A stretch of 64,000 nt of DNA, taken from Alkalidesulfovibrio alkalitolerans DSM 16529 (GTDB lineage Bacteria > Desulfobacterota > Desulfovibrionia > Desulfovibrionales > Desulfovibrionaceae). A program made the position numbers and the translations under genes. Below, piece by piece: positions 11,462 through 12,947 of this stretch. The DNA lies in NCBI RefSeq assembly GCF_000422245.1, contig NZ_ATHI01000028.1, forward strand, positions 1 to 64,000, written 5' to 3'. Below the pieces are notes generated by a model. That model was not told the DNA's origin, ran no database searches, and saw nothing but the letters and a program-made list of their open reading frames with translations. The first letter of the stretch is position 1, and every line of letters begins with the position of its first letter.

Positions 11462-11788
11462 CTAGCAGGCGCAGCCGCTGGAGCTTCCGCCGCTGCAGCC
11501 TCCGCCGCATCCGCCTTGCGGAAGCACAAGCGAGGAGGTGAGCCGAAAGCCCATGGGGCCCATGTCGATGTGGATGGGGGAGGCGTCGGCGAGGAGATTC
11601 TTCTCGACCACGAAATCGAAGCCCGCGAGTTCGACGCTGGTGTCGGCCTCGGTCGCCTCGTCCAGGGCAAGCCCCAGGAACGGGCCGGAGCAGCCGCCCT
11701 GATTCAGGTAGATGCGGATGGAGCTTTTTTCCTTGTCCTGGAAGTAGGCGTCGATGTTGCGTTTCGCTTCGTCGCTGATGGTGATCAT
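11462..11788 (-). CDS. IscA/HesB-like Fe-S protein, cysteine form
   Basis: A 108-residue HesB-fold protein of the A-type Fe-S carrier superfamily. The first ligand cysteine lies in YLNQGGCSGP (Cys33). The C-terminus is unusually cysteine- and glycine-rich, reading GGCGGGCSGGSSSGCAC, in place of the usual CGCG. It starts at 11788 behind GGAGGCCTTC; an open extension to 11923 runs into the neighbour gene in another frame. It is a close paralogue of the gene just upstream (11878-12201), where Cys33 is replaced by an in-frame UGA. A terminator between them means each is probably transcribed on its own. Likely role is Fe-S or other metal/sulfur handling. Confidence 0.85.
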   Translation of the reverse strand: MITISDEAKRNIDAYFQDKEKSSIRIYLNQGGCSGPFLGLALDEATEADTSVELAGFDFVVEKNLLADASPIHIDMGPMGFRLTSSLVLPQGGCGGGCSGGSSSGCAC

Positions 11789-11877: not shown

Positions 11878-12201
11878 CTAACAGGCGCAGGATCCTCCGC
11901 TGCTTCCGCAGCTCGATCCGCATCCGCCGCCGCCCAGCTGCAGGGACGAAGTCACCTGGAAGCCGAGGTAGGACATGTCGATCTTGATGGGCTGGGCTTG
12001 GCCGTAGAGTTCTTTGTCCACGACAAAGGTGAAGCCCTCGGTTTGAACCTGTTCGTCGGTATCACGCGGCTCGTCCAGAGCCAGCGAAAGCCTGGGGCCA
12101 GCTCACCCGCCCGTTGCCAAATAGACTCGGATGGGAGAGAGTTCCTTGTCCGCGAAGTACTTGTCGAGTTGGTCCTTCGCGGGCTTGGTCACTTCGATCA
12201 T
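11878..12201 (-). CDS. HesB-like selenoprotein (UGA at codon 33 read as Sec)
   Basis: A 107-residue HesB/IscA-fold protein if the in-frame TGA at 12105-12103 is read as selenocysteine. Translation from ATG 12201, behind AGGAGGAGCTTG, gives VYLATGG-U-AGPRLSLALDE, which aligns without a gap to VYL/IYLNQGG-C-SGPFLGLALDE of the neighbouring paralogue; Sec and Cys are both residue 33. After the UGA the frame stays open, keeps the fold (EGFTFVVDKEL, PIKIDMSYLGFQVTSSL) and ends in the same cysteine-rich tail, GSSCGSSGGSCAC, before TAG. A selenoprotein family related to HesB is already described. Standard gene callers would split or miss this gene. Selenium insertion machinery is not in the window. 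Confidence 0.85.
12075..12101 (-). promoter_or_regulatory. Candidate bacterial SECIS hairpin just after the UGA
   Basis: Within the coding RNA, starting two bases after the UGA, the sequence can fold as a lower stem of four pairs (two of them G-U), a 2x2 internal loop, and an upper stem CCAG/CUGG with the 7-base loop GCUUUCG. Position and size fit bacterial SECIS elements, which lie directly downstream of the UGA. The fold was drawn by eye and not computed. Confidence 0.5.
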
Positions 12202-12234
12202 CAAGCTCCTCCTGGTGCGGATACGCACCGCATT

Positions 12235-12262
12235 CACGTAACTGCCAAAGAACACTTGTCAA
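12235..12262 (-). promoter_or_regulatory. Possible sigma-70 promoter for the selenoprotein gene
   Basis: A perfect -35 box TTGACA lies at 12262-12257 on the leftward strand. With a 16-base spacer the -10 would be TACGTG, which is weak. A small hairpin GGTGCG/CGCACC (12214-12229) lies in the resulting leader. The 209 bases 12202-12410 must also hold the rightward pyrR promoter, which I cannot place. Confidence 0.35.
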
Positions 12263-12410
12263 GGAAGGCGCGGAAAAAAACAAGCCTTGTTATGTATTTC
12301 ACAATGTTTTTCGTTGCTTTGTCGATCCTTCCCGCTTGGATTTTTCGTACAGGGAAATTGAAATTTTTTTCGAAGCGGCGTAGGGCTGTTTTTTTCATCG
12401 CGAGGCATGC

Positions 12411-12947
12411 ATGAACACAACCACCGTCATCGCCACCTCGGCCGAGTTCGAGAACGTCCTCAAAGATCTGGCCGAAGCCATTGCAAAGCGCCACCCCGAG
12501 GGCCGCGATCTGGCGCTCGTGGGCATCCAACGCCGGGGCGCGGACATCGCTGCCCGGCTCAAGGCCCTTCTCGACGAACGCTTCGGCGTGCGCCTGCCCC
12601 TGGGCAAGCTGGACATCAATCTTTATCGTGACGACTGGACGAGTCTGCAGGTGCAGCCGTCCATCCAGTGCACCGAAATTCCCTTCGACGTCTCCTCGGC
12701 CATGATCATCCTGGTGGACGACGTGCTCTTCAGCGGCCGCACCATCCGCGCCGCCATGGAGGCCGTGCTCGATTACGGCCGCCCTCGGCGTCTTGAGCTT
12801 CTCGTGCTCGTGGACCGGGGGCATCGCGAGTTGCCCATTCAGCCCGACTACGTGGGCGCGCGCGTCGAGACAGCGCTTGCCGACCGCGTCAACGTGCTGG
12901 TGCGCGAACGCGATGGCGAGGACGCCGTCCAGGTCATCCGGGCCTGA
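12411..12947 (+). CDS. pyrR: PyrR-family uracil phosphoribosyltransferase/regulator
   Basis: A 178-residue type I phosphoribosyltransferase of the PyrR family. The PRPP-binding loop is intact as ILVDDVLFSGRTIRAAM (about residues 99-115), and GIQRRGADIAARL near residue 37 is the flexible-loop region. PyrR proteins attenuate pyr operons in response to UMP and have weak uracil phosphoribosyltransferase activity. No pyr biosynthetic gene is adjacent here, so any target is elsewhere or the protein serves mainly as an enzyme. The next gene begins 21 bases later in the same direction. Confidence 0.9.
   Translation: MNTTTVIATSAEFENVLKDLAEAIAKRHPEGRDLALVGIQRRGADIAARLKALLDERFGVRLPLGKLDINLYRDDWTSLQVQPSIQCTEIPFDVSSAMIILVDDVLFSGRTIRAAMEAVLDYGRPRRLELLVLVDRGHRELPIQPDYVGARVETALADRVNVLVRERDGEDAVQVIRA

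Follow-up and report, generated by a model that had tools for sequence, protein, structure and literature searches.

A 2006 study (PMC1794560) listed HesB-like selenoproteins in both D. vulgaris and D. desulfuricans, and in 2007 Desulfovibrio vulgaris DVU_1382 was described as a member of the HesB family with an in-frame TGA (PMC1914089). The HesB-like selenoprotein appears with the motif UxGP in a review table of 2026 (PMC13188914), and its function has been described as not clear (PMC11097638). For Methanococcus maripaludis, 75Se labelling of the HesB-like selenoprotein is cited in PMC11097638. Bacterial SECIS elements are stem-loops located just 3′ of the UGA, having a small apical loop with a guanosine, whereas archaeal SECIS elements are located in the 3′ UTR (PMC1088965). 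A-type carriers were reported by Vinella et al. to be missing in many Delta-Proteobacteria (PMC2682760).

The window analyzed here, the whole stretch of 64,000 nucleotides, derives from Alkalidesulfovibrio alkalitolerans DSM 16529, whose genome (3.2 Mb, 32 contigs) is rated 100% complete. It carries a hesB/iscA-like gene with an in-frame TGA (the Sec gene) and a tandem paralogue with cysteine at the same position (the Cys gene). The features discussed below are the following.

11462..11788, minus strand: tandem Cys-containing paralogue, 108 codons plus stop, Cys33 in GGCSGP; NF038090, 110.8 bits
11823..11854, minus strand: hairpin resembling an intrinsic terminator, with T tail, in the gap that separates the Sec and Cys genes, from a terminator search
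11878..12201, minus strand: hesB/iscA-like selenoprotein gene, 107 codons plus TAG stop, selenocysteine (Sec) at codon 33; NF038090 and PF01521
12068..12082, minus strand: putative SECIS hairpin core GGCUC-UGGAC-GAGCC, with conserved pairing and compensatory changes
12103..12105, minus strand: UGA within the frame, taken as the codon for selenocysteine (residue 33); the aligned codon of Sec-type homologues is also TGA
12208..12213, minus strand: AGGAGG ribosome-binding site of the Sec gene, from the sequence
12257..12262, minus strand: putative −35 element TTGACA of the Sec gene, kept in the two nearest relatives
12411..12947, plus strand: pyrR, divergent neighbour; NF003549, 200.6 bits against a cut-off of 138

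Gene structure and family membership

With TGA read as U, positions 12201-11878 of the minus strand encode 107 residues (MIEVTKPAKDQLDKYFADKELSPIRVYLATGGUAGPRLSLALDE...GGGGCGSSCGSSGGSCAC). The gene consists of an ATG start, 32 codons up to the TGA at 12105-12103, 74 further codons and a TAG stop. The sequence-only reading of this DNA had described a 107-residue protein broken only by this TGA, which proved exact when the frame was read again. The TGA, which that reading had placed opposite Cys33 of the tandem paralogue, indeed falls in the same alignment column (GGUAGP versus GGCSGP). Its expectation that normal gene calling splits the gene was likewise borne out, as mechanical ORF calling stops at the TGA and returns a 50-aa ORF (12255-12103). 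Standard annotation would thus split the Sec gene, and reading the UGA as Sec corrects the call.

Membership of a HesB-like selenoprotein family, also claimed beforehand, was established using curated models. Over its whole length the Sec protein matched NCBIfam NF038090 (IscA_HesB_Se) with 127.1 bits, the curated cut-off being 85, which the Cys paralogue also exceeded; the Sec gene is an ordinary member of this family. Both proteins also passed Pfam PF01521 (Fe-S_biosyn), the Sec protein with 32.3 bits against a gathering threshold of 26.3. Its scores were below the cut-offs of TIGR01911 HesB_rel_seleno (33.9 bits, cut-off 66.35), of the IscA equivalog TIGR02011 (19.9 bits, cut-off 150.6) and of the ErpA equivalog PRK13623 (24.2 bits, cut-off 117), and TIGR01911 was rejected as its family on this score. 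The nearest named relative found, with 88% identity, came from the metagenome assembly of a Desulfovibrio sp. (L053). The AlphaFold model (mean pLDDT 81.7) best matched IscA, SufA and related structures (Foldseek hits 1x0g, 1r94 and 1s98, E values 1e-7 to 1e-5), while the Cys-rich tail, residues 91-107, was disordered (pLDDT <50). Residue 33 aligned with the conserved Cys of the GGCSG loop in AQ_1857 and HI1723.

Upstream of the Sec gene, no clear −10 element was seen within the window and a rule-based search gave no full promoter. The Sec gene and pyrR have a common upstream region of 209 bp (12202-12410). This head-to-head arrangement of pyrR with the hesB-like pair was found in 44 of 67 loci, distributed over many genera of the family; no locus sampled from the order's other families had it. 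It may reflect either a common regulatory region or simple synteny.

Decoding of the in-frame UGA

The sequence-only reading had proposed a search of the genome for selA, selB, selC and selD. All components were present: tRNA-Sec (88.8 bits, UCA anticodon, tca according to ARAGORN), selA (613.8 bits), selB (389.7 bits) and selD (346.4 bits), the last with one in-frame TGA of its own. Given this set, UGA recoding is very probably in use in the organism. The selD gene (L020, G000:C6:15265-16185) likely encodes a selenoprotein itself, its in-frame TGA being located near the N-terminus (GUAAK).

Across the order, an NF038090 member scoring over the cut-off was present in 183 of 199 genomes; among the genomes listed there was typically one copy with TGA and one without. 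About 150 related genomes carry the TGA form. In the 168 genomes where selB and the TGA form were each tested, the latter occurred in 145 of 149 selB-positive versus 5 of 19 selB-negative genomes (Fisher p = 3e-13, a value that overstates the independent evidence, as related genomes share ancestry). Three of the five selB-negative genomes with a TGA form are incomplete (43, 82, and 77%). The other two, G087 and G103, are near-complete and were considered as counter-examples; both turned out to carry tRNA-Sec, so that selB was likely missed, and they were dismissed as such.

The putative SECIS hairpin is built from the codons of the peptide ALDE, which form the stem GGCUC/GAGCC and the loop UGGAY. 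The loop carries G at position 2, with a distance of 26 nt from the UGA to this G. Conservation was assessed on 60 Sec-type genes, in which TGA occupies the same codon of the alignment, together with 61 further members of the family, all from 67 loci. In Sec genes, the ALDE codons are nearly frozen (GCU 59/60, CUG 60/60, GAG 59/60), whereas in Cys genes they are free, GCU making up 6 of 51 Ala codons and GAG 16 of 36 Glu codons. The complete stem of five pairs is present in 59 of 59 distinct Sec genes versus 0 of 35 Cys genes that encode the ALDE peptide as well, and shifting the stem partner by 1-4 bases lowered the paired cells to 22-63%. Compensatory changes were observed from G-C to U-A in eight sequences and to A-U in one. 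In L080, a U-A pair was converted to C-G by a silent Ala change combined with replacement of Glu by Gly; selection on the protein hardly accounts for this. The single-sequence fold downstream of the UGA was not more stable than shuffles; the case for a SECIS therefore rests on comparison across genes, and this comparison supports the predicted hairpin. With its small loop containing a G, it agrees with published bacterial SECIS elements (PMC1088965).

Comparison of the Sec gene with its two nearest orthologues yielded dN/dS values of 0.13-0.27 after the UGA. These values show purifying selection on the 3′ part of the frame and indicate that it is constrained and translated. A pseudogene, a sequencing error or a true stop yielding a 32-residue peptide would equally make standard gene calling end at the TGA. 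However, dozens of independently sequenced genomes share the TGA, and the selection past it and the SECIS constraint likewise argue against these explanations, which were rejected on these three grounds and retain hardly any probability. Neither a lack of selenocysteine machinery nor a base error, both named earlier as grounds for abandoning the selenoprotein interpretation, was found at the sequence level. Homologues with Cys at the aligned Sec position, by which selenoproteins are recognized, are present. Taken from these comparisons, Sec is almost certainly inserted at codon 33, and what looks like a broken gene is very probably functional, encoding a selenocysteine-containing relative of proteins for iron-sulfur assembly.

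The Cys paralogue and the origin of the pairs

The terminator search in the gap between the Sec and Cys genes returned one hairpin against a shuffle mean of 1.9, which is not significant alone. A hairpin followed by a T run is likewise located between the pair in the nearest relatives, L037 and L053, and a terminator-like hairpin occurs there in many relatives.

Within the lineage of the window (L034, L037, L053), the tree places the Sec copies and the Cys copies in different clades, and evolution is faster in the Cys copy (dN 0.29-0.38 versus 0.04-0.11 for the Sec copy). The family tree contains lineage-specific Sec/Cys pairs in several genera. A tree holding all Sec rows together was rejected (p-AU 3e-35), and well-supported branches force at least six changes of Sec-group label; the alignment has 109 columns, and inspection of the tree preceded the tests on the groups. 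With the same proviso, one ancient Sec/Cys duplication was ruled out by the tree and the AU test. The pairs probably arose by repeated duplication with a Sec-to-Cys change or by gene conversion; either would do, the 109 columns being too few to separate the two.

Several further observations concern the distribution of the family. One group of genera has a third neighbouring member in which Sec/Cys is lost, e.g. SFMSESGPRL, and which forms a well-supported clade of its own (coding-strand offsets L036:1981, L038:1969, L039:1986, L042:1973, L043:1973, L054:3888, and L055:3887). In the genomes G062, G104 and G157, selB is kept and the family is present in the Cys form only, which points to apparent losses of the Sec copy. 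Nine NF038090 matches, several weak and some with TGA, were found in G187, one genome of the family, which represents a local expansion. No relatives were found in phages, and the plasmid collection gave just one weak match, on a 2.6-Mb record.

Possible functions and comparison with known systems

A PF01521 search of the source genome returned the Sec/Cys pair as the only two matches. Among 199 genomes of the order, none of the PF01521 matches seen exceeded 35 bits; nine were listed, weak ones typical of the HesB-like family. The order-wide search recovered its E. coli control; its threshold was tight enough to miss the window's own weak matches, so that its negative result covers only strong, classical IscA/ErpA proteins. 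With no further PF01521 match found in their genome and no strong IscA/ErpA match seen in the order, the pair are natural candidates for the A-type role, which this does not prove. As the pair are apparently the sole IscA-family proteins of a probable strict anaerobe, the role of the HesB-like selenoprotein becomes directly testable here.

We propose that SelB with Sec-tRNA, held at the hairpin 12082-12068, would decode the UGA at 12105 as selenocysteine, yielding the full 107-residue IscA-fold protein. Sec33 would occupy the position of the first conserved cysteine of IscA and, with the flexible Cys-rich tail, most likely form a binding site for metal or an Fe-S cluster. The protein would then most likely act as an A-type carrier of Fe-S (or iron/metal), in a form adapted to strictly anaerobic life, and the Cys33 copy may do a related or back-up job. 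The sequence-only reading had already assigned residue 33 to the first Fe-S ligand site: the position holds by alignment with IscA-fold proteins, the ligand role less firmly, and the AlphaFold model, with its disordered tail, does not support a cluster site geometry. A carrier role for Fe-S or metal has, in our estimate, an even chance of being correct, and the complete proposal, from Sec decoding through the carrier role to a related or back-up Cys copy, we hold with about equal belief and doubt.

The IscA fold, the membership of the Fe-S_biosyn family and the lack of another A-type protein found in the source genome favour a carrier over a selenoprotein for thiol/selenol redox chemistry or metal/metalloid handling, in which Sec33 would be a nucleophile or a soft-metal ligand together with the tail cysteines. 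Sec, however, usually serves in redox catalysis, and redox functions are expected for most uncharacterized selenoproteins (PMC13188914); the tail is a variable run of Gly, Ser and Cys, and the protein scores far under the IscA/ErpA equivalog cut-offs, so that this function is a possible, if somewhat doubtful, alternative. In the archaeal, distant Methanococcus maripaludis, a disruption mutant of the HesB-like selenoprotein was viable with unimpaired nitrogen fixation (PMC11097638), and an essential Fe-S role is therefore not general.

Either function could be fulfilled by an interchangeable, selenium-responsive pair of isoforms, the Sec copy serving when selenium is plentiful and the Cys copy when it is scarce. 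Recurrent tandem Sec/Cys pairs fit such a switch, as do several selB-negative genomes that retain the Cys form alone, and M. maripaludis is known to switch between Sec and Cys isoforms (PMC11097638); the separate clades and the faster Cys copy in the window's lineage suggest division of labour instead, and we consider such a selenium-responsive pair rather unlikely. The carrier proposal can also be extended to the order, whose whole A-type Fe-S carrier function might have passed to this HesB-like family, the main member carrying the cluster via the selenium ligand of Sec33 and its tandem Cys partner being made repeatedly by duplication or conversion. If this extension, which we regard as speculative and improbable, were true, cluster delivery in these anaerobes would depend on selenium.

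The Sec gene adds one species' copy to the published HesB-like selenoprotein family of sulfate reducers. Less expected are the status of the pair as sole A-type (PF01521) proteins found in the genome, the lack of a strong IscA/ErpA-type match in 199 genomes of the order, the repeated Sec/Cys pairing and the head-to-head position of pyrR. Compared with NF038090 IscA_HesB_Se, nothing of substance differs. DVU_1382, likened here by description, has the same family name and use of TGA and comes from a sulfate reducer, very probably of the same order. With the methanogen HesB-like selenoprotein (TIGR01911), the Sec protein has the UxGP motif and the HesB domain in common, but it scores under the cut-off of that model, and its predicted hairpin is located in the coding region, as opposed to the 3′ UTR of archaeal SECIS elements. 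With the A-type carriers IscA, ErpA and SufA (1x0g, 1s98, 2d2a), it shares the fold and, by alignment, the position of the first cysteine; it differs from them in having Sec for that Cys, in its Gly/Ser/Cys-rich tail and in scores far under the IscA and ErpA cut-offs.
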